Origin: a virus
DNA length: 47,250 nt
IMG/VR virus record: IMGVR_UViG_3300009488_000025
Span: 1 to 47,250 of that record
Strand: one strand, 5' to 3'
Below the pieces are notes generated by a model, which searched no databases, was not told where the DNA came from, and saw only the letters and a program-made list of their open reading frames with translations. Position 1 is the first letter of the stretch; every line of letters begins with the position of its first letter. The position numbers and the translations under genes are program-made. Shown piece after piece: positions 32,050-47,250 of the stretch.

Positions 32050-32054
32050 ATTTT

Positions 32055-32488: not shown

Positions 32489-32501
32489 TTTTTGATTCCC
32501 T

Positions 32502-33014: not shown

Positions 33015-34129
33015 CGTATTTCCCTGTATTTGGGCTTTCTATTGAGGCGCAAACTTTCTTCTATTTTGTGCCAGACTTTTCCAACAATATCGAAAAGTTT
33101 TTGCTCTAGGCTTTGATCTTCAATCCTCTTAATTAAAATGGAGCGAAGGCAGGGGTCTACTCCTAAGTCATGTGGGTCAACTCTTTTCCCTTTTCCACCA
33201 CTCCAATGATTCTCTTTTATTAAAAAATCAACACAAGAACCGATGTTGTCAATTCCATAATCGTAGTAAATTGGGAATTCAATTTCTCTGACTTTCCCCG
33301 TTAATTTATTTTTAGAAATTTTCACTTTGCATTTAATGCCTATTTCTCTTTTTTTGCTTTTGATTGAACCACCATTGGCAAGCCAAATTTCGTGAGTAGC
33401 AAAAAATTTAAGAGCTTTTCCACCTGCTCTGGTTTTTTTGGTAAAAGACATAGGGTCAATGTTATCTCTAGTTTGGCTTATTATAGCCAAGAAGGATTTG
33501 GTGTTTTCTAGTCGCCCAATAATTTGACGCAGGATTTCACTTGATTTCTTGGCTTTGGCCATTCCATATGAGCCTTTGACTAAATTGCCGTTTGCTCTGG
33601 ATTCCAGCATTTCCATGCTCTTTTTTTCATCGGCTTCAGCGTTTAGTGCATCGAACGAATCCAGGCAATATACGCATGGGCTTTTTTTTAAGGCTTTGAC
33701 TAAATTTAGTTGAAAATCTTCGATCATATCGCTTGGTATTTCATCACCCTCATCATTTATTGCAGGAGCTTGAATTCTCTCTGCGAATGAAGCACCAAAT
33801 AAGTAGTCCATATTAAATGAATTTGCATTTTCTACATCATCATAAATTAAAGAATATTTATTAAACTGTTTTGCAATTTGCATTTCAACCAATGTGGTTA
33901 GTGCTACAAAACTCTTTCCTGCACTACTATCACCAATAATATTGACCATAGAACCTTTGAGCCATCCACCTGATGTATAATCAGATAATGCAAGATTTAA
34001 CAAAGTGGAACCTGTGGGCAGTACATCCTCTTGTGTGTGTTTTTGTGTGTAATTTTTTCCTTCATAAGCTGACTTTTTAATTTGTTCTGTAAGAGATGTT
34101 TTTGAAGGAGAACGCACATGCCTAGACAT
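33011..34129 (-). CDS. RecA/UvsX-like recombinase
   Basis: 372 residues. Walker A GDSSAGKS lies near residue 70, Walker B-like VYCLDSFDAL near residue 155, and an L1/L2 region follows (AIISQTRDNIDPMSF and ARAGGKALKFF-like TRAGGKALKFFATHEIWLA). This is the core of phage RecA-type strand-exchange proteins. Partners are the SSB, resolvase and Mre11/Rad50 nearby, so a T4-like recombination-dependent replication mode is plausible. I start at ATG 34129; TTG 34135 has the better-spaced AAAGGA and is an alternative. It overlaps the HTH gene. Confidence 0.83.
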   Translation of the reverse strand: MSRHVRSPSKTSLTEQIKKSAYEGKNYTQKHTQEDVLPTGSTLLNLALSDYTSGGWLKGSMVNIIGDSSAGKSFVALTTLVEMQIAKQFNKYSLIYDDVENANSFNMDYLFGASFAERIQAPAINDEGDEIPSDMIEDFQLNLVKALKKSPCVYCLDSFDALNAEADEKKSMEMLESRANGNLVKGSYGMAKAKKSSEILRQIIGRLENTKSFLAIISQTRDNIDPMSFTKKTRAGGKALKFFATHEIWLANGGSIKSKKREIGIKCKVKISKNKLTGKVREIEFPIYYDYGIDNIGSCVDFLIKENHWSGGKGKRVDPHDLGVDPCLRSILIKRIEDQSLEQKLFDIVGKVWHKIEESLRLNRKPKYREIR

Positions 34130-34337
34130 TATCAAAGAAATCCTTTTCTATTTTTTTCATAAATTCATGAAAAAAATTTTTTTGTATAAATCTGTTTGCT
34201 CGAAAACCTCCTGGTTGAATGCCTAGCTTATGTTTTTTCACCCAACTAATTAATGTGACTTTGGATATATTTATACCTTTTTCGCGTAAAATTTTTAAGG
34301 CTTCTTTTGTTGTATAATATTCAGGATTTTTATTCAC
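34122..34337 (-). CDS. Helix-turn-helix protein, excisionase/MerR-like
   Basis: 71 residues. The section YYTTKEALKILREKGINISK and VTLISWVKKHKLGIQ followed by ANRFIQKNFFHEFM fits the excisionase-type winged helix that reads a short DNA site. It starts at GTG 34337 behind GGAGAAAAT. It precedes the recombinase gene and overlaps it, so it may regulate this operon. No integrase is present, so a role in excision is not supported. Confidence 0.65.
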   Translation of the reverse strand: MNKNPEYYTTKEALKILREKGINISKVTLISWVKKHKLGIQPGGFRANRFIQKNFFHEFMKKIEKDFFDNV

Positions 34338-34416
34338 ATTTTCTCCATTGAGCTTGAGAAGTTTTTACCTTCCCAAGCGGGTTGTTTTTAATGAATTGAT
34401 GAACTAATAATTTTTA

Positions 34417-35640
34417 TTATTCAGATTTTTTTGCTTCCTGAAATTCTTGCTCATCTTTACATGCATCCCAGACAGCACAATTTAGGCAATGATTAGTGCT
34501 GTCGTTATCCTGGCCCCATATATATCTCTGTGGACATGAATTCTCTGGGTTCTCTGGGTTCTCTGGTTCATTGAGAGAATCATCATTATTATCGTTATTG
34601 TCATAATCATCGGTATTATTATTAGTGTCTTCCTCTTCCTCTTCTTCTTCTGGTTTTTTCCGGCTACGCCGTCTGGTTTGCTTGGGTTCTTCTTCTTCTA
34701 CCTCTTCTTCTGGTTTTTTCCGGCTACGCCGTCTGGTTCGCTTGGGTTCTTCTTCTTCTACCTCTTCTTCTTCTACCTCTTCTTCTGGTTTTTTCCGGCT
34801 ACGCCGTCTGGTTCGTTTGGGTTCTTCTTCTTCTACCTCTTCTTCTTCTACCTCTTCTTCTGGTTTTTTCCGGCTACGCCGTCTGGTTTGCTTGGGTTCC
34901 TCTTCCTCTTCTTCTAGGTTTTCTCCAGTTTCAAAAAATAATGCTTTAATTTCTTTATATGAAAGTATGTTAAGTATTGTGTCGAGATTGGCCACTTCTT
35001 CCAGAATTGAGTCTTCATATGGGTCCCGTTTTTCAAAATCAATACGTGATGCTTTTGGGAATTCAAAATTACCAATAGATTCATTTTTGAAACGGGTTTT
35101 GATAGTCAAGCCGTTTTCAAGATCTGGGTAAACTCCGTGTTCCTCATCTTCCAATAATTCATTATCGAGTACTTCCCCGAAACAGAAGTAACTTATGTCC
35201 AGAATTTGCACACCATCATCGGGTTTTTCAACGTCAATCACATTGAATATCTGACGCTCAGACGTTTTCGTTGCTTTGATTTCAGATTCGTTTTTATCAT
35301 AATCTTTCAACAAAATATTGCGATGTTCGCAAATGGGGCAAGATTCTTTTATAGTTCTCGCAGGACATACAATAGTTTTATTTTCAAGACCAACTTGGCC
35401 ATGTCGGAAGTATGTACGCTCGTACCATAGTTCACCTTTTTTTGCTGAGGGGTTCGTGGATTCCGTCACTTCATATGGTATTATATCGAAATATCTCGTG
35501 CCTTTTTTTACTTCAATTATAGACATATCATTGGGAAGAGAAAGGGCGGAAGTACCTTTTCTATCGGCAGCTTTTTCCTTGTTTCTTGCTATGATTTTTA
35601 GTTTGAGGGTTTCTCTTAAATTACTTTTTTTTCTTGACAT
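34417..35640 (-). CDS. Single-stranded DNA-binding protein with charged repeat linker
   Basis: 407 residues. The N-terminal ~225 residues resemble gp32-like phage SSBs: a basic start, SIIEVKKGTRYFDIIPYEV, and the zinc-type cluster CPARTIKESCPICEHR. Residues ~240-330 are four repeats of the kind RTRRRSRKKPEEEVEEEE, alternating basic and acidic blocks. An Asn/Asp-rich stretch follows, then the C-terminal Cys cluster CPQRYIWGQDNDS...CLNCAVWDAC, known from other phage SSB-like proteins. The acidic tail should recruit replication partners. It is upstream of the recombinase operon and downstream of the UvsY-like candidate. Confidence 0.75.
   Translation of the reverse strand: MSRKKSNLRETLKLKIIARNKEKAADRKGTSALSLPNDMSIIEVKKGTRYFDIIPYEVTESTNPSAKKGELWYERTYFRHGQVGLENKTIVCPARTIKESCPICEHRNILLKDYDKNESEIKATKTSERQIFNVIDVEKPDDGVQILDISYFCFGEVLDNELLEDEEHGVYPDLENGLTIKTRFKNESIGNFEFPKASRIDFEKRDPYEDSILEEVANLDTILNILSYKEIKALFFETGENLEEEEEEPKQTRRRSRKKPEEEVEEEEVEEEEPKRTRRRSRKKPEEEVEEEEVEEEEPKRTRRRSRKKPEEEVEEEEPKQTRRRSRKKPEEEEEEEDTNNNTDDYDNNDNNDDSLNEPENPENPENSCPQRYIWGQDNDSTNHCLNCAVWDACKDEQEFQEAKKSE
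34651..34905 (-). repeat. 60/75-bp coding repeats in the SSB gene
   Basis: Four near-identical blocks begin at 34651, 34711, 34786 and 34861 (+ coordinates), so the period is 60, 75 and 75 bases. Each block carries TGGTTTTTTCCGGCTACGCC on the + strand. The extra 15 bases in two units add one more VEEEE phrase. In-frame length variation is likely. Confidence 0.85.
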
Positions 35641-35664
35641 GTTTTTCTCCTCAGTAGTAATTCA

Positions 35665-36171
35665 TTAAAAATTTGTTTTTTCTTTTATAATTCTTCTTCG
35701 TCTTGTTCGTGTTTGCTGTTGTAAATTTTCTTTTTTCTCTTCTTTGAACTCCTCTGGAAGATTATGGGGAATGGTTGGACTAGAAAAGTAGTTTTGTCCA
35801 TGTAACCGGGTTAAATTTTCTAATGCTGCTTTTCGTTGATGAAATGCAAACACGGCATTGGCATACATTTCTTGTTCAAATTGAGCGTTATGCAATTCTG
35901 TTTTTGCTTTTTTATAATGCTCATTATTTCGGTAGAATGCTTCAATGTTGAGAGCTATTGGCTTAACACCTGTTCCAAGAATGGATGAGCCTTTTGTACT
36001 TGCTTCAATAATTAATTCGGATCGTATTACTTTTACTCGCTCTTCACATTTACGAACATACCTGTTTGCTTCGGCAGACTTGGTAGCATATTTATTAAAT
36101 CGTAGGGGTTGTTCTAACCATTCTACATCGAGTTGATGCTTGTTGATTCGTAAATCATCGGCGTAATTCAT
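35665..36171 (-). CDS. Conserved phage replication-module protein (UvsY-like candidate)
   Basis: 168 residues. The N-terminus LDVEWLEQPLRFNKYA and central FAFHQRKAALENLTRLHGQN belong to a pattern I know from conserved phage proteins encoded next to SSB genes. The protein is mostly helical with a very basic C-terminus (RTRRRRIIKEK). Location next to SSB and near a RecA-like protein fits a recombination mediator like T4 UvsY, but this is a positional inference; I cannot prove homology. Confidence 0.55.
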   Translation of the reverse strand: MNYADDLRINKHQLDVEWLEQPLRFNKYATKSAEANRYVRKCEERVKVIRSELIIEASTKGSSILGTGVKPIALNIEAFYRNNEHYKKAKTELHNAQFEQEMYANAVFAFHQRKAALENLTRLHGQNYFSSPTIPHNLPEEFKEEKKENLQQQTRTRRRRIIKEKTNF

Positions 36172-36211
36172 TAATTTTTCTTAATCATTAATAGTTCTTT
36201 AAGTTGAATTA

Positions 36212-37159
36212 TTAAAAAGGAATTGGGTCTTCTTTTTCTTTTCCTATAGACATAGCCTCATATGCCATGAGAATTAGTCCGGCTTTTCCATTTACGTATA
36301 AGGGTTCTTTGAAACTATCCATCACTATGAACGCTTGTTCAGAGTCTTTCCCATTTAGGAGAATGGATGAGCAATAACCCATTACAGCTAGACGGATACT
36401 TTCAGGTTGTTCTCCGTCTATACTTTTGAGTATTTGAGCTACGTTTCCCCATGATTCGCCTTTGAATAAAGCTCTGCATAAGTCAATTATTTCATGATCT
36501 TTTTCGGAATTTTTTTGTATGCTATCTAGCATATCCTTCAAGGGCAAACTTAACACAGTTTCTAAAGTTTGTAAAGCAAGACGGCAAGAACCATGTGAAT
36601 TTTCTGCAATTTTTTGGCAGATAATTTTGCCGATTTTTTTGTCTTCTTCAAAAGCTACTTCGTACAGGAATGTAACCATATCCTGGTTACTTATGGGTTC
36701 GACAACAAAATGAATGCAACGATTCCTTAACGTGGCCTTTAGTTTTTTTGGTTCAGTTGTACATAGAATGAAGAACACATGTACTGGTGTATCTTCCAAT
36801 CCTTTTAATAGAGCTTCTTGAGCATCTTTGGTGAGTTGATGACACTCATCTAAAATCCATACTCTACATTTGCTTTTGATAGGTGCATACCGCATCTGCT
36901 CACGAATATCCCGGATGTTGTCGATTCCCCGAAAATCAGCTGCATCTAGCTCAGTCAAATCATCCTCACGGCAATCTAGTTCAGAAGCAATTATCCTAGC
37001 TAAAGTGGTCTTCCCGCATCCGCTTGGGCCAGTGAAGAGCCAAGAACTAGGAATGTTTGATCTGTTTCTGTTGAGGATGCTTTCTATTGACTTAATTATT
37101 TTTATGTTCCCAACAACTTCGTCGAATAATTCTGGGCGATATAAAGTAGCTAGCGACAT
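36212..37159 (-). CDS. Sliding-clamp loader AAA+ subunit
   Basis: 315 residues. Begins MSLATLYRPELFDEVVGN, typical of RFC/gamma subunits. Walker A is GPSGCGKTTLA, Walker B is VWILDECHQL, and the LRNRCIHF segment corresponds to the sensor/SRC region. It would use ATP to place the clamp (40006-41013) on primed DNA. GGAG precedes ATG 37159. No second loader subunit is recognised, so a homomeric loader or use of host subunits is possible. Confidence 0.85.
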   Translation of the reverse strand: MSLATLYRPELFDEVVGNIKIIKSIESILNRNRSNIPSSWLFTGPSGCGKTTLARIIASELDCREDDLTELDAADFRGIDNIRDIREQMRYAPIKSKCRVWILDECHQLTKDAQEALLKGLEDTPVHVFFILCTTEPKKLKATLRNRCIHFVVEPISNQDMVTFLYEVAFEEDKKIGKIICQKIAENSHGSCRLALQTLETVLSLPLKDMLDSIQKNSEKDHEIIDLCRALFKGESWGNVAQILKSIDGEQPESIRLAVMGYCSSILLNGKDSEQAFIVMDSFKEPLYVNGKAGLILMAYEAMSIGKEKEDPIPF

Positions 37160-37182
37160 TTACTTCTCCAAATATATTTAAT

Positions 37183-37377
37183 TTATTTTTTTTGTTTATT
37201 CTTGGTATAAGATACAAATTTTCCACACCAATCATTTTTTGCAGCTTCAGGAAACACTGTCTTATGGATGAAAGTATTGTCTATATTACAATCTATAATA
37301 ATTACTGGTGGGTTATGACGACATTCACCATTTTTGTGAAAATTCTTACAGTTTTTACATGTATTCTTGTCATACAT
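37183..37377 (-). CDS. Small Cys-rich zinc-binding protein
   Basis: 64 residues. The pattern CKNCKNFHKNGECRHNPP, then FPEAAKNDWCGKF, is a common small phage protein with four Cys likely binding zinc; function unknown. It starts in a TAATG overlap with the polymerase gene, so it is probably translated together with it. Confidence 0.62.
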   Translation of the reverse strand: MYDKNTCKNCKNFHKNGECRHNPPVIIIDCNIDNTFIHKTVFPEAAKNDWCGKFVSYTKNKQKK

Positions 37378-38759
37378 TATACAATCTCCAGTTCTTGTTT
37401 ATCTGCCCAAGAACCATCTATAGGTGTGATTTCGAGTTCTACATCAATTGGAACATTTATCCATCTCCAGTTCTTTCTGATTTTTTCTGTCATAATTATT
37501 TTGCATTGCTTTAACAAAAAATCCTGCTCTTTCGGGACCAAATCAAGGATAATTTCATCGTGTATCTGTCCAATAATTAGAGTATCTAAATTATTTTTTT
37601 CAATCACCTTTTGAGTTTCAATCAAACTATAAAGGGTACAATGAAAAGCGGTGCCTTGAACTGGATAATTAATTGCATCATTTTTGCCCATGACCCCCTG
37701 GCAGCGGAATCCAGTCAAAGTGTCGAAAAATCCCTTTTCCTGATATGCAGCCCACCAATCCTCTTTCCACTTAGTGTATATGGGAAATCGTTCATCCCAA
37801 AATGATTCAAAAATAAGTTCTATGTGTGTCTCAAACTGCTCATAATTATCAATCCCACATGATTGCAGCCATTGAATTAATGACAAACCATTAGGGAGTA
37901 TATGGGTTTCCTTTTGTGCGCTTTTCCATAAATTTGGCGCACAGGATTTGAACCAATCCCCGTAAAAACTGGGGAAAACAAATTGATTTTTACTGCTATG
38001 CCGTATTGCTTTGGCTATTTTTGGGTCTGTTTCTTGTATATATCCCCATTCTTCTGGAGTGAACAAATAAATTTCCTGTGCCATGTCCCTATGTAAATCG
38101 GTGGATGGGTCTGAGTTGTATTTCATCATGGTCGGGTCTTTGTGGTAGGCCGTACCAATCTTTACCTCAATACCTGAAAAATCGAGTGCAGCTATTTTTC
38201 TGCCTGGACGGGCAATAATTGCTCTTCGACAAAGTTCCTTTATTTCGGGGTCTCTGTTTGGAATATTTTGGATATTAGGTTCGGATGATGAACTCCTGAA
38301 TGTTCGCACTAAATGCAGATGAAAAAACGGGTGCATGTAGTTATCAACAGATTCATCAATGAAATTTTGCAAGTATGTGTTTTTGGCTTTGACTAGTTGT
38401 TTGCTTCTTATCAGAAGATCAAGGCCAGGGATATCAAGTTCGGCCAAGGCTTCTGCTTTTACAGAATCGTTGCCCTTTTTGGTTTTGAATGAAGTAGCTA
38501 GACCCATTACATCATATAAAATATGTGATAGTTGCTTGTCACTGTTTATATTCAGTTTAAAACCAAATGCTTTTCGTCCAACTTCTCCCAGTTCAGAATC
38601 TAGTATTTGCTTTTGCATCCGTGCTACACGCCTATCTAAATGGCGAATTGCCTTGTGGCAATAATCTATGTCTACATGGACACCGTTTCGTTCCATTTGA
38701 GCCAGAACAAGGCCGGAATCGTGCATCAACTGATACGCTTCTTCAGTGATTGGTCTCAT
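37377..38759 (-). CDS. Family A DNA polymerase, polymerase domain only
   Basis: 460 residues. Motif A is AALDFSGIEVKI, motif B corresponds to SSKNQFVFPSFYGDW, and motif C is GQIHDEIILD, with the catalytic Asp residues in A and C. The start MRPITEEAYQLMHDSGLVLA is the usual beginning of the helical region after the exonuclease domain. The 3'-5' exonuclease is on the upstream gene, whose stop overlaps this start as ATGA. Thus a Klenow-like enzyme is encoded as two chains. It is the replicative polymerase of the phage. Confidence 0.87.
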   Translation of the reverse strand: MRPITEEAYQLMHDSGLVLAQMERNGVHVDIDYCHKAIRHLDRRVARMQKQILDSELGEVGRKAFGFKLNINSDKQLSHILYDVMGLATSFKTKKGNDSVKAEALAELDIPGLDLLIRSKQLVKAKNTYLQNFIDESVDNYMHPFFHLHLVRTFRSSSSEPNIQNIPNRDPEIKELCRRAIIARPGRKIAALDFSGIEVKIGTAYHKDPTMMKYNSDPSTDLHRDMAQEIYLFTPEEWGYIQETDPKIAKAIRHSSKNQFVFPSFYGDWFKSCAPNLWKSAQKETHILPNGLSLIQWLQSCGIDNYEQFETHIELIFESFWDERFPIYTKWKEDWWAAYQEKGFFDTLTGFRCQGVMGKNDAINYPVQGTAFHCTLYSLIETQKVIEKNNLDTLIIGQIHDEIILDLVPKEQDFLLKQCKIIMTEKIRKNWRWINVPIDVELEITPIDGSWADKQELEIV

Positions 38760-40006
38760 TGGTAAATACCCTGTTTTAACAAAGGCATTTGAATTTCTGA
38801 CAAGCCAAACTGATAAAGTGCATCCAATCCATTGTACATAAGCAAATCTTGTGAAGGGGCCTCACGTACCCTGTTTATTGAATTTGAGTTGCCTGTACTT
38901 TCCAAATATTCCTTCATATGGGTTGCATAATCTACCACACCAAAATGAACGTACACCTGAAATTTCAATCCAGTAATTCCCATACGATTATCCAAAATAT
39001 GGGCTGCAATCATAGAATCCCATTCCCATCCTTGCATTTGTGTTCTATATCTAATTTTTGCCCAATTATCTTCAAATTTCATATTGTGCGCTCTTTTGGG
39101 TATTTTTGAATTAGAAAATATCTGTCTGAGCATTTTTGTAGCTGGACCCCTTTGGGGCATGGGAAAAGATATTGCTCGTTTTGTACTTGTGGATATAGCA
39201 CATGAAATTATTTCATGTCCTGGTGCATGGGGTTTTAATCCAGTTGTTTCAAAGTCAAAAGCAAATGGTTCCTCTTTGATTTTTTTGAGTTCAGAAAGCA
39301 GATGGTCTGGGTTCAAAATAATTTCAACTGCTTTTTCTTCGTTCTTCATTGTAGGAAAAGGTGCTTCGGAGCGGGACAAAGCCCTTTTTAAATCTTGGTC
39401 GAAAATAATACCAACAACAGGGGCGTATATTTCTGAACGTTCACTCCTTTTGCCACTGGCCATACTTTTTATGACGTATGAAGGGTGAAAGAGAGGGGCA
39501 ACCCAGGCTTGAGTTTTCCTATCTGGAATAACCCACCCTCTCCATTTGTTGATGCCTCCTGACTTTTCTGCCCATCGGTCACCTATGAAAGATTCCACGG
39601 CAGCATTGCCCAAGAGAAAAATTGTTTCAGGTTTAAAACTGTCAATTTCTTTCCAAATATTTGGACGGCACATTGCTATTTCGTTGCTTGTTGGAGTTCG
39701 GCCATTTGGTGTTCGGCAACTAACGGCTGCAATTTTTTTGCAATCTTGCTCGATGCTGATTCCATGAGACCGTAATTTATGCCTAAGCCAGTCAGAAGCA
39801 GAACCACGCATTAATTTTCCGGTTAAATCTTCTTCTTGACAGGGGATTTCAGAAATAATTAATATTCCTTTTTCACCTTTTCCAGTAGATTTTATGGCAG
39901 GTGTTATGCACTCTTCACGGAGGCCACATGCACCACACCCAATCAAGCGTTGAATTTTATGGCCATGTCCTACTTCTTCTTTGTTGAAAAATCCGGTAGT
40001 AATCAT
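38756..40006 (-). CDS. Uracil-DNA glycosylase-like domain fused to 3'-5' exonuclease
   Basis: 416 residues. Residues ~20-205 look like a family 4/5 UDG: Fe-S cysteines CGACGLREEC (24, 27, 33), AVSCRTPNGRTP, and the HPS motif LFHPSYVI. The usual GEAPG motif is replaced by SEIPC, so activity is uncertain. Residues ~230-416 are a DnaQ-like exonuclease: FDFETTGL (Exo I), AHNMKFEDNW (Exo II) and YNGLDALYQF (Exo III). The polymerase domain follows as a separate coupled gene. I start at ATG 40006, which overlaps the clamp stop (TAATG). Coupling of uracil recognition and proofreading to the polymerase is plausible. Confidence 0.8.
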   Translation of the reverse strand: MITTGFFNKEEVGHGHKIQRLIGCGACGLREECITPAIKSTGKGEKGILIISEIPCQEEDLTGKLMRGSASDWLRHKLRSHGISIEQDCKKIAAVSCRTPNGRTPTSNEIAMCRPNIWKEIDSFKPETIFLLGNAAVESFIGDRWAEKSGGINKWRGWVIPDRKTQAWVAPLFHPSYVIKSMASGKRSERSEIYAPVVGIIFDQDLKRALSRSEAPFPTMKNEEKAVEIILNPDHLLSELKKIKEEPFAFDFETTGLKPHAPGHEIISCAISTSTKRAISFPMPQRGPATKMLRQIFSNSKIPKRAHNMKFEDNWAKIRYRTQMQGWEWDSMIAAHILDNRMGITGLKFQVYVHFGVVDYATHMKEYLESTGNSNSINRVREAPSQDLLMYNGLDALYQFGLSEIQMPLLKQGIYQ

Positions 40007-41013
40007 TATGTGAAACAAACAAATACATGCACGAATTCTCCGTCATCACCTTCAAATCTTAATTGATTTTTGCTGATTTCCATTACGTTGCATAGTTCAA
40101 TTATTTGGGCTAAATATTCAGGGTGGACCTTAATGTTTTTAGATTCTCCTTTATAATTAATTGAACAGTTCTCTTCAAAATAACCGAAATTACCTTTAGA
40201 TTTGACAATGAATTTTCCGTTTCCAATTGTAAGAGATATACGGGGGTTGTTGAAATTACCGTTGTCGATAAGGGCGTTTGCTCTTTTTATTACATTGTTC
40301 AGCTTTTTTGGTAAATCAACTTGTTCCCCTTCAACATCAATGATTCTTTGAATATTAGGGAAAGTCATACTTATGTAAGTACGACAACTAAAGACCACTT
40401 CATTTTCTGTTTTGAAATGTAGCCAACCTGGAGAGGTTGAATATTCCACCACGTCAAATGTGACTAGCGATTTTGCAGCAACATGTGGAATCAAAATTGG
40501 TTTGGAGAAGCATTTGTCATCATCAAGGTATCGAATAGTCATTCTAAAACTGTCGGAGCTTTCAACACGGCCTTGATGGACGTGTATGCATGTTAGGGCT
40601 GGTTTTGTCTGGTCTTTAGAGCAACTGAATAAGCAAAACTTAATAGCCGTTGTGAAGTCGTATGGAAGCGCATTGAAGTGTCCAGTTTCTTGTTTGACAG
40701 GCAATGTAATTTCTAGAATAATTTTAATCTTTGCTCTATAATTCCCTCCTTTCACCAACAAAAAATTATCTTTCTGTGTGACTTTTATTTCTTCTTCTTC
40801 AATTTTCTCCAAAAAGTTCAACAGCTGTTTGGCAGGAACTGCTCCATTTATTTCAATTTTAAATGGATGAGATATGGCTATTTCATCGTTGTAGGAGTAA
40901 ATAATATTTTTTTGAAAAACAAAACAATCTGATTGCAACACAATTGCTTTTGGGGCAATTCCATGTCGTAGCATATGAAGTACATCTAACAGAGCTTTTG
41001 TGTTGATGAACAT
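40006..41013 (-). CDS. DNA sliding clamp (beta/DnaN-like)
   Basis: 335 residues, somewhat shorter than bacterial beta clamps. It shows the three-domain beta pattern: AVPAKQLLNFLEKIEEEEIK in domain 1, TCIHVHQGRVESSDSFRMTI in domain 2, and a C-terminal domain with KVHPEYLAQIIELC. The clamp gives the phage polymerase processivity. I start at ATG 41013 behind AAAGG instead of the longer frame to 41085 that overlaps the upstream gene. Confidence 0.8.
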   Translation of the reverse strand: MFINTKALLDVLHMLRHGIAPKAIVLQSDCFVFQKNIIYSYNDEIAISHPFKIEINGAVPAKQLLNFLEKIEEEEIKVTQKDNFLLVKGGNYRAKIKIILEITLPVKQETGHFNALPYDFTTAIKFCLFSCSKDQTKPALTCIHVHQGRVESSDSFRMTIRYLDDDKCFSKPILIPHVAAKSLVTFDVVEYSTSPGWLHFKTENEVVFSCRTYISMTFPNIQRIIDVEGEQVDLPKKLNNVIKRANALIDNGNFNNPRISLTIGNGKFIVKSKGNFGYFEENCSINYKGESKNIKVHPEYLAQIIELCNVMEISKNQLRFEGDDGEFVHVFVCFT

Positions 41014-41035
41014 AATCAGACCTTTCAAGAAAAAA

Positions 41036-41527
41036 TTATTTACGGACGTATTGTACAGTAGGACGAAAATGCACTCCACCAACATGGACTGATTCAGCTG
41101 TTACAGTAATTTGGAAAGGGTCGAGTAGATTAATTAGATCGTTACTGATAATGGTTATGCAAGTGTCATGGGTTGCCATGTATTTACAGAAGGTTTTCAG
41201 ATATTCACTAAGAGATTTTTCTGACACACAATAATGTCGGGGTAGGTAGTTAATGTGGAGTAGTGCATAATTTATATCTGCATCACCAGGGTAAATGTTG
41301 GAGAATTCAGGGTATTTAATTTGAACTTCTCCGGAAACCACATTTCGGTTTATCACTTTATTCACGAATGGGGAATCATATTTTTTGAGTAATAAGTAAC
41401 TCGGTGTTACGTATATTGGGGTTACTTCTTTTTCTGGTGGTAATTTAATTTTTGAATTATTTTCTGGTGGGTCTTCTAGTTCAACAGGTTCGCAATTATT
41501 TTCTGAAGGTTGGGTTTTGTCTGGCAT
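41036..41527 (-). CDS. Protein of unknown function in the replication operon
   Basis: 163 residues. The N-terminal ~35 residues are acidic and Pro/Asn-rich, the rest looks folded (VNKVINRNVVSGEVQIKYPE, then INYALLHINYLPRHY). No family recognised. GGAG lies ten bases before ATG 41527. It sits between the QueC-like gene and the clamp, with short gaps, so it is probably co-transcribed. Confidence 0.55.
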   Translation of the reverse strand: MPDKTQPSENNCEPVELEDPPENNSKIKLPPEKEVTPIYVTPSYLLLKKYDSPFVNKVINRNVVSGEVQIKYPEFSNIYPGDADINYALLHINYLPRHYCVSEKSLSEYLKTFCKYMATHDTCITIISNDLINLLDPFQITVTAESVHVGGVHFRPTVQYVRK

Positions 41528-41545
41528 TTTTAATTACTCCATTTT

Positions 41546-42124
41546 TTAATCGTAAGTAATTGGGTCACTTTCAATTCTTTCCTCGAACAAATTAATACGT
41601 TCCATGCATTGCAAACAATTTCCACAAGCATAATTCAGTGAAGAAGAACAAGAACGTATTTTTTCAAAAGGAATTTTAAGATTAATACCATTTTCTAATA
41701 TGTCTTTTTTCTTTTTTCTAATGTATGGAGCATATAATTTCATTTCTTCTTCAAATGCAAATTTCATTGAGAGGTTCATGGAAGAAATTAGAGCCTTTGC
41801 ACAATTCTGTGTTCCAATCGCAATAGTATCAAATTCACCTGATTCAGCAATTCCTGCAAGAATTGAAACAAAGAGCAAATTTTTTAAATTATCGTTTCGG
41901 ATTTTTACCGGCATTTGAAACTCAGCCATTGGAGAGGCAATGTCAATCAGAGTAATAGGAACATCATAATGTTTGGCTATATTAATGGCCGCTGTGTTTT
42001 CTTTATCATTTGATGTTGATTTATATGAAAATGCAATTGTAGCTACATTAAAATTAATATTGAGCAGGTGAGCCAACAATGTAGTGCTAGCAATACCTCC
42101 TGATAATGCAAGTAGAACATTCAT
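41546..42124 (-). CDS. QueC-like PP-loop ATPase
   Basis: 192 residues. PP-loop ATPases of the QueC family make preQ0, used by some phages to modify DNA guanines. Here the loop reads LALSGGIASTTLL, with Ala in place of the conserved Asp of SGGxDS. PVKIRNDNLKNLLF matches the family's P-x-RN motif, GTQNCAKAL is in the usual place, and the zinc site C-x7-C-x2-C-x2-C is intact (SCSSSLNYACGNCLQCMER). GAGGAA precedes ATG 42124. No QueD, QueE, FolE, or DpdA gene is visible in the window, so it would depend on host precursors or have another role. Confidence 0.68.
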   Translation of the reverse strand: MNVLLALSGGIASTTLLAHLLNINFNVATIAFSYKSTSNDKENTAAINIAKHYDVPITLIDIASPMAEFQMPVKIRNDNLKNLLFVSILAGIAESGEFDTIAIGTQNCAKALISSMNLSMKFAFEEEMKLYAPYIRKKKKDILENGINLKIPFEKIRSCSSSLNYACGNCLQCMERINLFEERIESDPITYD

Positions 42125-42135
42125 AAAAGTTCCTC

Positions 42136-43014
42136 TTATTCTGGGAAAGACATAATCTTTGTGTCAGGGTCAGTTATTGCAAGTTTTTCATATTTTGTTC
42201 GCGCTTTGTTTTTGGAATTGCTAATAATGGCTAAGGTGCCTGACAAAGCAAACATACTGTATTCTTTTTCAATAATAAGGGCAATTTGTGTGTTGGTGTG
42301 TTTGTTTTCTTGAATCAACTGTTTAATTCGATTAATACGTTCTTTGTTGGGCCTTTGTGTTTTCTTGGATTTTTTAGACTTCTTTTGTACTTTTTTTTGA
42401 GTTTCTTTTTCCTCTATTGGGGGTTGATTCTTTATGATGACGGGTTTCATTTTTTTTTGATTTTGCTGAATAGTTTCAGCAAGAGATTCTAAACGCTCAT
42501 CGGTTAAGAGGTGATTGACAAGACCATTTTCTTCCAGGTAAGTCCAAGATTGATCGTCAAACATCGTTATTTCTTCTTCAAACAATTCCCTGGCCCGTTC
42601 GCGAATATCTAAAAACATCAATTTTTTATCTGGTTGAATTGGGATAAGATCATCGTCTGGTGATTCATATAAGATTTTATTGATGGTCTCTGCAACATGA
42701 GTAATAATGCACTCGGGAATTTTGATGAGTTCTTCCTCAATTACTTGTGTGTCACTCACTTCAGTGATTTTTATTTTGTTTGGTTCTTTTTTTGGGGGAT
42801 AGATGTGGACAAGAAATCCTCCTTCTTTCAATAGTTCCCATGTCTTCTCACTAAGTACTTCCGCATCCTCTTCAAAAATGTCTTTTGCACCTGTTGTCAA
42901 TTCTTTTTTTAAGTTTTTTGCTTTAATGTTTATTGCAGGTGCGAAATCAATTGCTTTATTGATTTCATTTATCATGGAAAGAAGGACACGTTTGTTGAAT
43001 TTATTGTGAGACAT
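42136..43014 (-). CDS. Early protein with internal duplication and basic C-terminal region
   Basis: 292 residues, no family recognised. Two sections are related: AKDIFEEDAEVLSEKTWELL followed by KEGGFLVH, and ARELFEEEITMFDDQSWTYL followed by EENGLVNH. Between residues ~205 and 230 is a basic cluster (KKVQKKSKKSKKTQRPNKER), followed by a helical part (RIKQLIQENKHTNTQIALII) that could be a DNA-binding helix-turn-helix. ATG 43014 has AGGAG six bases upstream; the in-frame ATG 43032 would put that site inside the gene. It is first in a transcript driven by the promoter at 43053-43081. Confidence 0.58.
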   Translation of the reverse strand: MSHNKFNKRVLLSMINEINKAIDFAPAINIKAKNLKKELTTGAKDIFEEDAEVLSEKTWELLKEGGFLVHIYPPKKEPNKIKITEVSDTQVIEEELIKIPECIITHVAETINKILYESPDDDLIPIQPDKKLMFLDIRERARELFEEEITMFDDQSWTYLEENGLVNHLLTDERLESLAETIQQNQKKMKPVIIKNQPPIEEKETQKKVQKKSKKSKKTQRPNKERINRIKQLIQENKHTNTQIALIIEKEYSMFALSGTLAIISNSKNKARTKYEKLAITDPDTKIMSFPE

Positions 43015-43052
43015 GAAAACTCCTAGTTTCAATTAAGGGATAAGATTAATTT

Positions 43053-43081
43053 AAAATATAACCTTTTGTTCTCTTTGTAAA
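43053..43081 (-). promoter_or_regulatory. Early promoter candidate P4
   Basis: On the - strand TTTACA (43081-43076), 17-base spacer, TATTTT (43058-43053). Part of a set of four promoters with a shared -35 environment (CTTTACAAAG). It would transcribe the clamp/polymerase operon beginning with the gene at 43014. Confidence 0.5.
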
Positions 43082-43082
43082 G

Positions 43083-43104
43083 AACAAAACAAATTTGTTT
43101 TGTT
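43083..43104. promoter_or_regulatory. Perfect 22-bp palindrome upstream of P4, operator candidate
   Basis: AACAAAACAAA immediately followed by its exact reverse complement TTTGTTTTGTT. It abuts the -35 box of P4. A dimeric regulator could bind here; the HTH protein at 34122-34337 is one candidate, which is speculation. Confidence 0.55.
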
Positions 43105-43155
43105 GATTAGTTTAACAAAAAACCATGATCCGTCTGCTTCTTTATTAAAACTCAT

Positions 43156-44430
43156 TTAACTATCTTCCCATACTCGAAACTTGCGACTGGTTTCATCTTC
43201 AATTATTTTCAACTCAAATGGGCGATAAGCCTCTCCTCCTGGATTGTTTCTTGCCTTTGTGAAATTAACATGAAAAAATGCTCCTTCATGAATGTTCCAA
43301 TTATCTGGCTTGGTGAGGTGTATTGTGTTGTTGAGTGGGTCTTCTAATGAAGAGGCCCCTCGTTGGTGGCCTTTTGATTTACCTTGATGATGAATTATAA
43401 TTACGGAAACGCCTAATGCACGTAATTTAATTAGCCAAGCTGTGAAGACACTTGTACTCTGATTGTCATTTTCATCCCTTCCACTACATAAGGAGGATAA
43501 ATTATCAAGTATCAGAACACGGCAAGACCTGTTTTTTTTAAAATATTCGTAAAATTTATCTTGCCATTCAAAATTATATAAATTGACAGTTTTATTGTGT
43601 TTCTCTGTATAATCTGGAGCAGAGAAAATTTTCAAAGCGTGTTGTCGGGATTCTTTCCCTAGTGGCCCAATCAATTGTCTGAATCGGTCTTGAAGATCAA
43701 ATCTACCCATTTCTCCATCTACATAAAATACACCACATGGGTGTCTCACATGCCAAGGGCCGATAGATATTTTCTCATATGTGTCCCGAGTGATAGATAC
43801 GGCAATTATCATTGCAAGCCAAGATTTGCCTAAGCCTCTTTCAGCAAAAATCATATTAAGGCTTTTTTCTCTTAACCATGGGTAGATGATAGCTTTGGGT
43901 TTTTTTATTTTTTCTGTTAGTAACTGAGTTGATGTTTCTGTTGATGAAGTGAATTTTACCTCTATTGTTTTGATTTTCTCATTTTTGTACTCTTCAAGCA
44001 GTTGGAGAATTTCTGTGTCTCCATCTTCTTCTTTTGCACAAAAGGCAATTTGTTCACTTAGTTCTTTTACATTTTTTTTGATGAGTAATTTTTTCGTTGT
44101 GTCGAAAAGATACTCAGCATTTATATGAGGGGTTTTTTTAAATTCATTACTGATTCTGGATAAACAGTCACCGATCAAATCCATAACGTCTGTATCATCG
44201 GCTGTGTTTAACTTTTCCTTGAAAATATCTTTGATATGAATTCCAGGGGCAAGAGAATATTTTTCGTAGTATTCTATACACCACTGAGCTATAGTCTGGC
44301 CGAATGCACTCTGGAATAGAATAGGGTTGTATATTGGGTTAACCATTCCCAAGAACTCCGTGCTGACGATCATTCCGATGAGGATTTGATCATCAGCACT
44401 TACATCTACTTTTTTACGTTTGATCTTCAT
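43156..44430 (-). CDS. Replicative helicase (RepA/DnaB-like)
   Basis: 424 residues. The N-terminal ~140 residues resemble a DnaB-type N-domain (DDQILIGMIVSTEFLGMVNP). The C-terminal RecA-like motor has Walker A AERGLGKSW, the sequence GVFYVDGEMGRFDLQDRF, Walker B VLILDNLSSL, and an arginine/HQG section VSVIIIHHQGKSKGHQRGAS as in RepA-like helicases. Translation begins in an ATGA overlap with the loader gene, so helicase and loader are produced together. It should unwind the fork ahead of the polymerase. Confidence 0.83.
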   Translation of the reverse strand: MKIKRKKVDVSADDQILIGMIVSTEFLGMVNPIYNPILFQSAFGQTIAQWCIEYYEKYSLAPGIHIKDIFKEKLNTADDTDVMDLIGDCLSRISNEFKKTPHINAEYLFDTTKKLLIKKNVKELSEQIAFCAKEEDGDTEILQLLEEYKNEKIKTIEVKFTSSTETSTQLLTEKIKKPKAIIYPWLREKSLNMIFAERGLGKSWLAMIIAVSITRDTYEKISIGPWHVRHPCGVFYVDGEMGRFDLQDRFRQLIGPLGKESRQHALKIFSAPDYTEKHNKTVNLYNFEWQDKFYEYFKKNRSCRVLILDNLSSLCSGRDENDNQSTSVFTAWLIKLRALGVSVIIIHHQGKSKGHQRGASSLEDPLNNTIHLTKPDNWNIHEGAFFHVNFTKARNNPGGEAYRPFELKIIEDETSRKFRVWEDS

Positions 44431-45026
44431 TTGTGTTCTTCTACTCTTTTGTCTTCTCCTTTTACTTTCAAAATTTTCCCCATTCCCAATAATCGGCTAG
44501 CTATTCTTTTGCTGTAGTTGTTTGCCAATAGCTCAAAAGATAAATTACTTGCAATGGTGGTTTTTAGCATGTGTGAGTATCTGTAATCTATAATTCGGGC
44601 AAAAACAGAAAATTCCCAATCAGTGCCGGTATGCACACCAAAATCATCTATGTACAGATTCCGAGTAAGACAAAACAATCGAATGTAATCTTCTTTTGTT
44701 TTTTCTTTTTCATTACTCATACCTAATTGGATATTGGCTATTAATTCCACGGCAGGTATATAAATAGCTGTCAATGTTCCATGTTCATCCCCTTTATATT
44801 CAACGAATACAGTTGGGGACTCTCGTGAATCCATCACAGTTTTTTGAGCAATAGCACATAAAAGATGTGTTTTTCCACAACCAATGGCACCTGTAATAAA
44901 TGAAGCATTTAATGCTTTTTTCAAAATATCTGGGGAAAAATCACCAACTTGTGCATTTTGGTACAATGGTGGAATCTCTAAAGAATTTATTCTTCCATTA
45001 TATCTCACTCTATGTTTCCGATTCAT
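44427..45026 (-). CDS. DnaC-like helicase loader
   Basis: 199 residues, AAA+ ATPase. Walker A is GAIGCGKTHLLC and Walker B is NLYIDDFGVHTG, followed by FARIIDYRYSHMLKTTIASN and LSFELL, the classic DnaC/IstB ending with sensor residues. The N-terminus IPPLYQNAQVGDF is also DnaC-like. It starts in an ATGA overlap with the initiator gene. Confidence 0.83.
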   Translation of the reverse strand: MNRKHRVRYNGRINSLEIPPLYQNAQVGDFSPDILKKALNASFITGAIGCGKTHLLCAIAQKTVMDSRESPTVFVEYKGDEHGTLTAIYIPAVELIANIQLGMSNEKEKTKEDYIRLFCLTRNLYIDDFGVHTGTDWEFSVFARIIDYRYSHMLKTTIASNLSFELLANNYSKRIASRLLGMGKILKVKGEDKRVEEHK

Positions 45027-45814
45027 AGTGTTGCTGTCTCCATTTTGTGTTTACATTTATCCAATTCTTCTTGAGTCATATTAGTTTCATGTTGTGATTG
45101 TGTGTTTTTCCTCTTTTTTTGTGTAAGATTTTGTCTGCTTATAGCATTTTCCAATTGCACAAATTTCTCCCGTAGGGATTTCCCGCTATGAATGACTGGC
45201 GTGTACTGGTCATTAATGTTGTCTTTGTACCATTCTAAGACTTTTTGGATTCGCAAGGGGGCAATTTTAGAAGTTATACAAAGCAATCGAATTTGTTTTG
45301 TCCATGCTTCTTTATTGGCGGGAGTAATTGTAACGTTTTTATTTTCCATTACAATTGAAGCTAATTTTTCAGCCAATGGGAAATAGCGTCTTTTCAACTC
45401 ATCGGCTGTTTTTAGCTTTTTTTGGGTGTTTTTTTGTGATTGTTGTTTGGTGGGGTTTGGTGGGGAATAGGACAAAGGCTTGTCCCATTTGAATAATAAT
45501 TTAATAAAGACAGAGCATGTTTTACCACTTACAATTTTTCGCTCTTCCTCTACTAATCCTAATTGAATTAATTCTTTTATTAATTTACGGGTTGTTTTGA
45601 TACCAATCCCCGTAACATCCCGTATATACTCCGTTTTTGCATGTATTTTTTTTGTGTTTTGTTCCCTTGCAACTGAGAAAAGAAACACATACAAACCAAG
45701 CAAAAGTCCACTTTTTTCTGTGGACATTATTAAATTTATAGCATGTGACGGGATGGGAAGATGATTTTCTTTTTCATTGTGAGTGAATAAAACATCCCTG
45801 CTTTGATTTGACAT
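45023..45814 (-). CDS. Replication initiator-like winged-helix protein (long copy)
   Basis: 263 residues. An N-terminal winged-helix domain (YIRDVTGIGIKTTRKLIKEL, then QLGLVEEERKI and VFIKLLFKW) is followed by a DnaD/DnaT-like C-terminal region. Together with the coupled loader and helicase genes this suggests a lambda O-like initiation protein. I start at ATG 45814, with ACGGGAG eight to ten bases upstream; the longer frame to 45856 crosses the structured leader element E1. The ribosome binding site is complementary to the apical loop of E1, so translation may be controlled by that RNA. Confidence 0.68.
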   Translation of the reverse strand: MSNQSRDVLFTHNEKENHLPIPSHAINLIMSTEKSGLLLGLYVFLFSVAREQNTKKIHAKTEYIRDVTGIGIKTTRKLIKELIQLGLVEEERKIVSGKTCSVFIKLLFKWDKPLSYSPPNPTKQQSQKNTQKKLKTADELKRRYFPLAEKLASIVMENKNVTITPANKEAWTKQIRLLCITSKIAPLRIQKVLEWYKDNINDQYTPVIHSGKSLREKFVQLENAISRQNLTQKKRKNTQSQHETNMTQEELDKCKHKMETATL

Positions 45815-45841
45815 GGTGCAGTTCTCCCGTTTAAAAAATAG

Positions 45842-45918
45842 TTGGACTACAGACATATAGACGGGAGTTCTATATGTCTGCGCGATTAAGCTACTGGGGG
45901 CCAGTCCAGTTAGTCCAG
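45842..45918 (-). ncRNA. Structured leader element E1 (three-way junction)
   Basis: On the - strand: closing stem TGGACTA with TAGTCCA; second stem ACTGG with CCAGT; linker AGCTTAATCGCG; third stem CAGACATATAGA with TCTATATGTCTG (perfect 12 bp) and apical loop ACTCCCG. The structure is shared with E2 and E3, with compensatory changes. E1 lies in the leader of the initiator gene starting at 45814. The loop segment CTCCCGT is complementary to that gene's Shine-Dalgarno sequence ACGGGAG at 45824-45830. The longer segment at 45858-45871 is the exact 14-base complement of the region 46310-46323 upstream of the other initiator gene. Confidence 0.65.
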
Positions 45919-45919
45919 T

Positions 45920-45956
45920 AAGTGACTAAAATTAATTTAATTTTGAGTCACCACTT
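45920..45956 (-). other. Hairpin preceding E1
   Basis: On the - strand AAGTG-G-TGACT (45956-45946) pairs with AGTCACTT (45927-45920) with one bulged base, and the AT-rich interior can pair further. The 5' arm includes the last codons and stop of the gene at 45948-46304. A similar hairpin precedes E2, so it may belong to the element. Confidence 0.5.
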
Positions 45957-46304
45957 AAATATTAATTCAAATTGTCTGTGCTGTATTCTTCCATCTTCTT
46001 TTTTTACTATTGTTTCATTAATCAAACCTAATTGAATTAATTTGTTTCTTGTTTTGTGTTCTTTGGATTTACCCCACTTCAACAAGTCAAGTTCACGTAT
46101 TGGTTTTTCGTCCCCTGTGTTTAATTTTTTATGGGTCTCATATGATTTGTGACTTTTTGACATAGCGTAATAAGCCATGAACAAGCCTATCAAGTCACAA
46201 AAATTATCTATGCCCCATAATTTGTCGATAATATGGGTTGGAATTACATAGGGGGTATCAGCATCATCAAACCAGTAAGTTTCGTCTATCTCTTGATCTA
46301 TCAT
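45948..46304 (-). CDS. Replication initiator-like winged-helix protein (short copy)
   Basis: 118 residues, a single winged-helix domain. Its C-terminus (NKLIQLGLINETIVKKEDG, then FELIFKW) parallels the end of the N-terminal domain of the long copy (IKELIQLGLVEEERKI, VFIKLLFKW), so the two are paralogues. It lacks the long copy's C-terminal region and may compete for DNA sites or regulate it. ATG 46304 has GGGAGTT nine bases upstream. The region TAGACGGGAGTTCT around this site is exactly complementary to RNA element E1. Confidence 0.6.
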   Translation of the reverse strand: MIDQEIDETYWFDDADTPYVIPTHIIDKLWGIDNFCDLIGLFMAYYAMSKSHKSYETHKKLNTGDEKPIRELDLLKWGKSKEHKTRNKLIQLGLINETIVKKEDGRIQHRQFELIFKW

Positions 46305-46397
46305 AGCAAAGAACTCCCGTCTAAGCAATTAGCAAAGAACATCACGAAAAGTAAAAATTTTGTGTACTGAAATTTTTCAGCTAATCCAATGACACAT

Positions 46398-46426
46398 AAA
46401 TTAGTATATTTTGTGTGCTTTGTAAA
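46398..46426 (-). promoter_or_regulatory. Early promoter candidate P3
   Basis: On the - strand TTTACA (46426-46421), 17-base spacer, TAATTT (46403-46398). The -10 is weak, but the sequence around the -35 (CCTTTACAAAG) is shared with P2, P4 and partly P1. It would transcribe the short initiator gene and, through E1, the replication operon. Confidence 0.42.
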
Positions 46427-46452
46427 GGGAAAATTTCGCAGTTTGTGAGATA

Positions 46453-46534
46453 GTTGGGCTACAGACATACGTAACGGGGAATTTTGCATGTCTGAGCAAC
46501 CAAGCTACTGGACTATTGCTCCAGTTAGCCCAAC
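46453..46534 (-). ncRNA. Structured leader element E2 (three-way junction)
   Basis: Second copy of the element. On the - strand: closing stem GTTGGGCTA with TAGCCCAAC (9 bp); second stem ACTGG with CCAGT; linker AGCTTGGTTGCT; third stem CAGACATGC with GTATGTCTG (one G-U) and a larger loop containing TTCCCCG. Compared with E1 the closing stem has changed both partners (A-U to G-C), keeping pairing. It lies ~150 bases upstream of the short initiator gene and just upstream of P3. Confidence 0.62.
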
Positions 46535-46536
46535 AC

Positions 46537-46569
46537 ATGGCTATGAAATTAATTTGGTTTCATAGCCAT
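46537..46569 (-). other. Perfect 12-bp hairpin preceding E2
   Basis: ATGGCTATGAAA at 46537-46548 and TTTCATAGCCAT at 46558-46569 on the + strand are exact complements with a nine-base AT-rich loop. No T-run follows on either strand, so it is not a standard terminator. It corresponds in position to the hairpin before E1. Confidence 0.6.
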
Positions 46570-46596
46570 TTGAATATTAATTAAATTGCACCAATT

Positions 46597-46634
46597 AAAA
46601 AACCATCCTGACAAGTTTCACATTTGTCAGGGTG
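46597..46634 (-). terminator. Rho-independent terminator between E3 and E2
   Basis: On the - strand an ~11-bp stem (46634-46624 with 46614-46604, core CCTGACAA / TTGTCAGG) is followed by six U (46602-46597). It would end transcripts from the promoters at 46837-46865 and 46678-46706 before any gene is reached, giving short non-coding RNAs. Confidence 0.72.
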
Positions 46635-46677
46635 ATCTTGTGTTTTGGAAGGTTCAAATTCAATCAAAATTACAGGT

Positions 46678-46706
46678 ATAGTATTTTAATTATTCTGGTT
46701 TGTAAA
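46678..46706 (-). promoter_or_regulatory. Early promoter candidate P2
   Basis: On the - strand TTTACA (46706-46701), 17-base spacer, TACTAT (46683-46678). The predicted start near 46671 is only ~75 bases before the end of the terminator at 46597-46634, so the product would be a short RNA unless termination is overridden. Confidence 0.5.
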
Positions 46707-46737
46707 GAAATAATGAAATTTTATTATTTATGGAATA

Positions 46738-46828
46738 GTTGAGTTGCAGACATGTAGATCAGAAGGGAATTCATATCTACATGTCTGCGCGATTAAGCAA
46801 CCAGGAATGATTAACCAGTCAACCCAAC
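46738..46828 (-). ncRNA. Structured element E3 (three-way junction) at the 5' end of a transcript
   Basis: Third copy. On the - strand: closing stem GTTGGGTTG with CAACTCAAC (9 bp, one G-U); second stem ACTGG with CTGGT (G-U pairs); linker TGCTTAATCGCG nearly identical to E1; third stem CAGACATGTAGAT with ATCTACATGTCTG (perfect 13 bp) and loop with TTCCC. The predicted start site of promoter P1 (about 46830) falls just before the first base of the element, so a transcript would begin with E3 and end at the terminator at 46597, about 230 bases later, without a gene. Confidence 0.62.
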
Positions 46829-46836
46829 TAAAGTTC

Positions 46837-46865
46837 ATGATATTTTATTTTTTCTGACTTGTCAA
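46837..46865 (-). promoter_or_regulatory. Near-consensus sigma70 promoter P1
   Basis: On the - strand a perfect TTGACA (46865-46860), 17-base spacer, and TATCAT (46842-46837). Best promoter match in the window. It points into element E3 and the early region. Confidence 0.68.
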
Positions 46866-47127
46866 GGAACAAAATAAAAATAGAGGTAAAATTATCTGAA
46901 AAAATGGAGATGATTTGAAAGTTAGAGCATTACTTATATATGAGATTTTATTTTTTGGAAATGTTCTCCTATGTTTTGAACTTTTATGATGTTGAGACAC
47001 AAAATCATGTGGGAAAGGTGCTTTAATGGGAGTGTAAGGCACTTGCAAGACATTTTTGATGAAAAGATATAGTAAGGGAAGGGTGCTGTATAAAAATGCT
47101 TTGCATGAGTATTGTATGCTAAACTCA
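46866..47127. other. AT-rich region without a gene
   Basis: Nothing I can defend as coding. Short frames on the - strand (for example near 46845-47048) have no ribosome binding sites and low-complexity composition. The region lies between promoter P1 and the 13-bp tandem array and could be part of an origin or of a genome end, which is speculation. Confidence 0.4.
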
Positions 47128-47250
47128 ATGGATGAAATTTATGGATGAAATTTATGGATGAAATTTATGGATGAAATTTATGGATGAAATTTATGGATGA
47201 AATTTATGGATGAAATTTATGGATGAAATTTATGGATGAAATTTATGGAT
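47128..47250. repeat. Perfect 13-bp tandem repeat running off the window end
   Basis: The unit ATGGATGAAATTT is repeated nine full times and a further six bases, without a single mismatch, up to the last base of the window. 13 is not a multiple of three, so it does not code for a simple repeat peptide. Options are iterons for an initiator protein, a genome-end repeat, or an assembly artefact in a collapsed or looped repeat. Confidence 0.9.

Follow-up and report, generated by a model that had tools for sequence, protein, structure and literature searches.

What is the structured element that recurs three times beside the replication genes of this phage, and does it act as RNA or as DNA? The question arises from a 47,250-nt viral contig (IMG/VR record IMGVR_UViG_3300009488_000025, positions 1 to 47,250; hereafter, the window), in which the initial annotation had described an unrecognized three-way-junction RNA in three copies on the minus strand. 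Three copies of one folded element were confirmed on that strand of this one contig; the coordinates of all three proved right and the quoted stems exact (Table 1).

Table 1. Features of the element-bearing replication region, in window coordinates.
Feature	Coordinates	Strand	Basis
DnaC-like helicase loader and AAA_25 helicase, downstream	43156..45026	-	Profile matches
DnaD-like helicase loader (replication initiator)	45023..45814	-	PHROG 2514, 186, 391 and others
Predicted SD/RBS of DnaD-like gene (ACGGGAG), 7 bp with copy 1 loop	45824..45830	-	Complementarity scan
Copy 1, junction element; P4 loop ACUCCCG	45842..45918	-	Fold, alignment, covariance model
Hairpin P0 before copy 1	45921..45952	-	Fold, -10.7 kcal/mol
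ORF126; 126 aa from TTG, 118 aa from RBS-supported ATG	45948..46304	-	Apparent paralogue of DnaD-like N-terminus
ORF126 RBS, 14-nt perfect complement of copy 1 P4 arm (45858-45871)	46310..46323	-	Inverted repeat I3, 100%
Copy 2, junction element; P4 of just 9 bp, large loop AAAAUUCCCCGUUAC	46453..46534	-	Fold, alignment, covariance model
Hairpin P0 before copy 2	46537..46569	-	Fold, -15.0 kcal/mol; inverted repeat I4
Possible remnant of the end of a wHTH gene (LIFKW)	46566..46586	-	19 of 21 nt as in DnaD-like gene, 45485-45505
Intrinsic-terminator-like hairpin, then GGTTTTTT	46597..46634	-	Sequence reading; fold of 46595-46831
Copy 3, junction element; AAUUCCC in P4 apex	46738..46828	-	Fold, alignment, covariance model
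Predicted sigma-70 promoter TTGACA-17-TATCAT, 8 nt before copy 3	46837..46865	-	11 of 12 consensus matches

On the minus strand, copies 1, 2, and 3 had folding z-scores of -5.93, -5.38, and -6.10, and none of the 200 shuffles made for each copy folded as well. The corresponding plus-strand values were -5.08, -3.73, and -5.47, equalled by 0, 1, and 0 of 200 shuffles, respectively. The three elements are not the sole exceptional folding windows, as the minus strand of 45326-45505 also stands out: when positions 28000-47100 of this strand were scanned coarsely in 425 windows of 90 nt with simple shuffles, windows of the DnaD-like gene starting at 45326 and 45416 (z -7.1 and -6.8) outranked copy 3 (-5.7) and copy 2 (-5.6), and copy 1 fell outside the top 14 in that register. 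The copies agreed with one another at 56 of 77, 54 of 77, and 53 of 79 ungapped columns. A covariance model built from the three, run with filters off, found no fourth copy in the 47,250 bases; its 17 rows comprised the three copies, their three plus-strand counterparts (E 0.0026-0.081), and 11 rows at E 0.99-8.2.

The consensus consists of a closing stem P1 of 7-9 bp, a stem P2 (ACUGG/CCAGU), a mini-hairpin P3 (GC-UURRUY-GC), and a long stem P4 (CAGACAU...AUGUCUG) of 9-13 bp. The shared fold proposed in the initial annotation stood, but its three-way junction appears to be a simplification: the minimum-energy fold of copies 1 and 2 is, with small shifts, a four-way junction in which P3 sits in the supposed linker. 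P3 gains 1.7-2.0 kcal/mol in each copy. In copy 3, the minimum-energy fold (-35.6 kcal/mol) pairs the middle differently, and the consensus middle with the same P4 reaches -33.3, that is, 2.3 kcal/mol above the minimum. The bases quoted for the long stem were likewise exact, but the stem is short in copy 2, with 9 bp, versus 12-13 bp in copies 1 and 3. The motif AAYUCCC lies at the tip of P4 in all three copies, with the first A of copy 1 falling in the closing pair. In all three copies, the peptide MS[VA][VAT]QL[FS][FH]K starts at an AUG within the 3' arm of P4 (46301-46468 and 45856); the frame of copy 2 runs for 55 codons to a TGA overlapping the ATG of ORF126, that of copy 1 (45856) is in frame with the DnaD-like gene, and no SD was evident upstream of these frames.

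The helices are kept through base changes, as had been claimed; with three sequences, this covariation is fair but limited evidence, suggestive and not strong. When the copies are aligned by hand, double-sided changes affect five pairs (P1 pairs 6, 7, and 9 and P4 pairs 8 and 9), and P2 shows no double-sided change in any copy, copy 3 holding this stem via two wobbles. Departures inside the helices amount to four G-U cells and no A-C cell, which would weakly favour a minus-strand RNA; copy 1 also has one break, C-A, at the outermost cell of P1. Aligned by MAFFT, the copies show pairing in 98.6% of 71 cells and double-sided changes at four pairs; pairing falls to 27-40% when the partners are slid. 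Column shuffles equalled the pairing fraction in 12 of 500 cases and the double-sided changes likewise in 12 of 500; the number of further pair types was equalled in 335 of 500. When random transitions were simulated on the copy 2 helices, with the numbers of changes counted by hand, all pairs were kept in 0.9% of the runs with the 10 changes of copy 3 and in 6.0% of those with the 5 changes of copy 1, its edge break excluded; with that break counted, no more than one pair was broken in 20% of the copy 1 runs. Taken by itself, copy 1 is weak evidence.

The view that the fold matches no known riboswitch or ribozyme was upheld, and such an identity was ruled out, as no Rfam 15 family reached its gathering score anywhere in the window. 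A relaxed Rfam search of 45700-46950 returned 18 rows, all below the gathering score (best E 0.015), of which eight were miRNA-type hairpins. Neither a tRNA nor a tmRNA was found in the window. The stems of integron attC sites end in GTTRRRY/RYYYAAC; the stem ends of the element, compared by eye, resemble this motif but stand in the reverse order, and attC was rejected. The literature covered, mostly outside subscription journals, yielded no description of such an element. We would call it a putative phage leader- or antisense-type RNA without an existing family to join.

The initial annotation had let its reading depend on homologues with pair-preserving changes in related phages, and none was found by pattern, blastn, or covariance model. 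Exact-core patterns hit 3, 15, 0, and 2 stretches in viral_contigs, all 20 of which were read by eye and none of which holds the element; one such pattern found no stretch in genome_contigs. The blastn search against phages gave 12 records at E 0.3 (seven Cellulophaga, three Streptomyces, and two Aeromonas); in the two Cellulophaga records examined, the best model score was 7.0 bits (E 0.69), and the match, in one record, was AT-rich. Against plasmids, blastn gave nothing at E 0.1, and tblastn of the DnaD-like protein in phages gave nothing at E 0.01. Scans with the DnaD-like and helicase proteins recovered one further contig, whose matches are 100% identical; it stops within the DnaD-like gene and carries nothing of 45700-47250. 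More distant relatives were reached via the portal protein (three further loci, 25-56% identity) and via the DNA polymerase (17 further loci, 31-45% identity, some of which have identical scores and may be one phage). In these 20 loci, the covariance model gave just three rows, at E 1, 1, and 4.7, and in the 20 full records and the same-phage contig, searched without a positive control of their own, it gave none. A helicase-like protein was found in 7 of 22 loci, so the replication region is not missing from all relatives; a DnaD-like match was found only in locus L053 and a DnaC-like match only in locus L052. A filters-off model search of these two loci reached E 0.54 at best. In L053, an HNH gene stands ahead of the DnaD-like gene, and the strong structure in front of this HNH gene is a long hairpin of another kind, for which the scanner made no terminator call. 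In L052, what looks like a different branched fold (2098-2155) lies before a short wHTH gene and is not exceptional in its 146-nt context (z -1.18). Many of the relatives are fragments, the patterns demand exact cores, and metagenomes lay outside the scope, so these searches do not show that homologues are absent.

The placement of the elements at replication genes was borne out by profile matches to a DnaD-like loader, a DnaC-like loader, and an AAA helicase. On the minus strand, copy 2 is followed by ORF126, copy 1, and then the DnaD-like, DnaC-like, and helicase genes. The DnaD-like protein scored 24.2 bits against HTH_36, slightly below the cut-off of 25. ORF126 itself has no Pfam or PHROG match, and appears to be a diverged paralogue of the N-terminus of the DnaD-like initiator, with 25% identity (30 of 118 columns) and E 4e-8 in a single comparison. 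Elsewhere in the window, region 23849-28718 encodes an autotransporter (PF03797) with a 54/108-bp repeat array and a porin-like protein that matched no Pfam family at E 0.001 and had no relative in genome_contigs. At 41036-42124, QueC lies beside a GTP cyclohydrolase-like protein (PHROG 5949), a pair hinting at 7-deazaguanine chemistry.

The P4 tips are complementary to the ribosome-binding sites of the neighbouring genes, most clearly in copy 1. The complementarity between the P4 arm of copy 1 and the ORF126 RBS exists and is rare: the RBS is the best non-self site of the arm on both strands of the window (-24.3, versus -17.3 for the next), and the match of the 11-nt loop stretch was equalled by 0 of 20,000 random 11-mers and 0 of 311 TCCC-registered ones, the loops having been chosen after inspection and three loops having been tested on two targets. 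Among 46 gene starts taken from the ORF list, the copy 1 loop ranked ORF126 first and the DnaD-like gene second. Among the controls, 33 of 20,000 random ones and 6 of 311 registered ones equalled the match of this loop to the DnaD RBS, and this site is absent from the nine best sites of copy 1 in the window-wide scan. The copy 3 loop also ranked the ORF126 RBS first among the gene starts (-17.3 kcal/mol; equalled by 15 of 20,000 random 17-mers and 1 of 311 registered controls), and two sites at -18.1 outdo it window-wide; its match to the DnaD RBS is unremarkable, with 272 of 311 registered controls as good. Copy 2 ranked the DnaD-like gene second and ORF126 third, has no special complementarity (64 of 311 registered controls as good for ORF126 and 53 of 311 for the DnaD-like gene), and has neither RBS among its nine best sites in the window.

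The accessibility of the partners was assessed with folding programs that model nested pairs only, kissing and pseudoknot pairing lying outside their models. In these folds, the ORF126 SD was always buried and the DnaD SD was buried in four of the five stretches folded, in both cases with other C-rich stretches, and P4 of copy 1 remained closed without pairing with the ORF126 RBS; loop-RBS pairing would therefore have to start as a kissing contact or form a pseudoknot. Unpaired probabilities of 6-nt windows in the local ensemble were 0.00-0.07 for the SDs, at most 0.20 for the copy 3 loop, 0.04-0.38 for that of copy 1, and 0.51-0.61 for that of copy 2.

We tentatively read the elements as minus-strand regulatory RNA modules of the early operon whose anti-SD loops lower the translation of the initiators, a reading that is plausible though still short of likely. 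Each element would be a closed junction of P1, P2, P3, and the long P4 that presents the anti-SD motif AAYUCCC at the P4 tip. The arm of copy 1 would pair with the RBS of the gene upstream (ORF126, 14 nt) and with that of the gene downstream (DnaD-like, 7 bp), and copy 1 would lower the translation of the replication initiators either in cis or as a processed RNA. What the window itself shows is the folds, the covariation, the gene order, and the copy 1/ORF126 complementarity with its rarity; transcription, processing, loop-RBS pairing, and an effect on translation are what we infer. Among readings that draw on the loop, the gene order, and the promoter together, same-strand antisense control is the simplest.

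The logic would be that of the P4 CI RNA and the P1 c4 RNA, antisense RNAs that share the strand of their targets. The c4 RNA of phages P1 and P7 is a phage antisense RNA encoded on the strand of its target, as is proposed for the present elements; unlike it, they show no match to RF01695 at the gathering score in the window or among the relaxed rows. P4 CI, the immunity RNA of satellite phage P4, is a structured RNA obtained by processing of a transcript that is not translated; it controls the replication genes of P4 itself, is complementary to seqA and seqC, upstream and downstream of itself, and acts via transcription termination in lysogens (PMC4825925). Like CI, copy 1 is complementary to one upstream and one downstream site, and the elements adjoin the replication genes that they would control and share their strand. 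Complementarity on both sides is found for copy 1 only, and for the 7 bp of its DnaD part 6 of 311 controls do as well. Unlike CI, the candidate sites here are RBSs, so translation would be the expected level of control, and the likeness is one of description, not of sequence. Against the same-strand antisense reading, the 26 window proteins scanned, which represent part of the genes, include no integrase. A small protein encoded at 34122-34337 matches an anti-repressor family (PHROG 9438, E 3.4e-4), the one hint of lysogeny-type regulation. We tentatively read the elements as working like P4 CI or P1 c4 RNA without belonging to either family.

A minus-strand transcript across the elements is predicted from the one putative promoter before copy 3. 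In the scan of the whole window, 21 sites scored at least 10, three of them reaching 11, and no site of at least 10 was listed directly before copy 1 or 2; in 44500-47250, 10 sites scoring at least 9 were found versus 12.8 expected, that is, no enrichment. The terminator-like hairpin stands about 100 nt downstream of copy 3; the terminator scanner did not list it on the minus strand, probably owing to its 9-nt loop, as loops are limited to 8. In the same-strand antisense reading, copy 3 heads the operon, with its own promoter upstream and the terminator-like hairpin downstream, and would supply further repressor RNA directed against the ORF126 RBS.

The same arrangement suits the main rival, a cis-acting antiterminator like HK022 put, in which the nascent junction RNA binds RNA polymerase and the terminators of the early operon are read through. 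In HK022, putL is a structured RNA of about 70 nt just downstream of PL, a related copy, putR, lies about 270 nt downstream of its start, and the early genes of this phage group are mostly preceded by terminators (PMC9378689). Copy 3 comes immediately after a strong predicted promoter and is itself followed by the terminator-like hairpin, and the conserved sequence of P2, P3, and lower P4 would suit contact with a protein. However, no comparable promoter site was listed directly before copies 1 and 2; put consists of two stem-loops, whereas the present fold is a closed four-way junction in copies 1 and 2 and branched in copy 3; an anti-SD loop is not mentioned in the put description consulted (PMC9378689); and the complementarity between copy 1 and the ORF126 RBS would go unexplained. 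We regard an antiterminator as unlikely, and as the strongest of the rivals.

At copies 1 and 2, a P0 hairpin precedes the junction, and its outer part changes from GUGACU/AGUCAC to AUGGCU/AGCCAU, with two further double-sided changes in the hand alignment of these copies. This succession of P0 and junction between genes could serve mRNA processing or stability, with P0 guarding the upstream message at its 3' end and the junction guarding the downstream one at its 5' end; the RNase III sites in the early mRNA of T7 may offer a comparison. The predicted start would give copy 3 a similar 5' end, and P1 and P4 of copy 1 together comprise 19 bp. For such a module, the conserved P2 and P3 and the loop motif would be superfluous, and we consider it distinctly unlikely.

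The regions of copies 1 and 2 share the collinear repeats D1, D2, and D6 at a spacing of 614-615. The possible LIFKW relic matches the LLFKW codons of the DnaD-like gene, in an AT-rich stretch, and lies 32 nt before copy 2, just as the end of ORF126 lies 33 nt before copy 1. We read this as a probable tandem duplication of a cassette of element and wHTH gene, with the loss of one gene. In the related phage locus L052, a short wHTH gene directly precedes the DnaD-like gene, and the two are paralogues (31% over 91 columns, E 9e-11); the genes abut, with no element between them, and the pair of wHTH and DnaD-like genes therefore does not need the element. The elements might then be by-products of cassette duplication with no present function, and the loop-RBS matches a chance meeting of C-rich and G-rich stretches; the collinear repeats, the relic, and the unremarkable complementarity of copy 2 all agree with this. 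Yet pairs are kept through double changes, the similarity among the elements far exceeds that between the neighbouring genes (the wHTH proteins beside copy 1 share 25% identity), and chance is an unlikely source of perfect complementarity over 14 nt between an RBS and the arm of a hairpin; we consider this explanation improbable.

The contig end cuts a 13-bp tandem array (47128-47250; ATGGATGAAATTT, 9.5 copies, 100% match) that is iteron-like and perhaps part of the origin. In L052, three 16-bp iteron-like repeats lie inside the DnaD-like gene (3117-3166), a possible origin site for which lambda O provides an analogy. A DNA-level structure, such as an origin, a single-strand initiation site, or a cruciform bound by replication proteins, is the most doubtful explanation: the replication genes adjoin, both strands fold, the phage encodes resolvase-like and SbcD-like proteins, and the tandem array lies 300 bp away, but that array is the better iteron candidate, L052 has its iteron-like repeats and no model match better than E 2.7, and, as a weak argument, the four G-U cells of the minus strand would be A-C on the plus strand, versus one C-A edge cell on the minus strand. 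The STAXI motif, too, is a structure found in two or three copies next to genes for DNA-handling proteins, and RNA is considered likelier for it than single-stranded DNA; unlike the present element, STAXI is a pseudoknot, often with UUCG loops (PMC2864571), and it is absent from the Rfam rows obtained here.

Extending the same-strand antisense reading, the elements may represent a new class of phage regulatory RNA, in which P0 and a four-way junction are repeated along the early operon and one anti-SD switch serves the initiator genes on either side. The ratio and timing of the DnaD-like initiator and its short wHTH paralogue would then be set by a single RNA, and a ligand or phage protein at the conserved P2/P3 core could release the switch; this broader proposal is speculative and, as it stands, unlikely. 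If the reading is correct, replication initiation would be controlled at the RNA level in a tailed phage with its own replisome, and the translation of two paralogous initiators would be tied to one structured RNA. The three natural variants within one genome would then provide a compact test case for the evolution of loop-RBS pairing.
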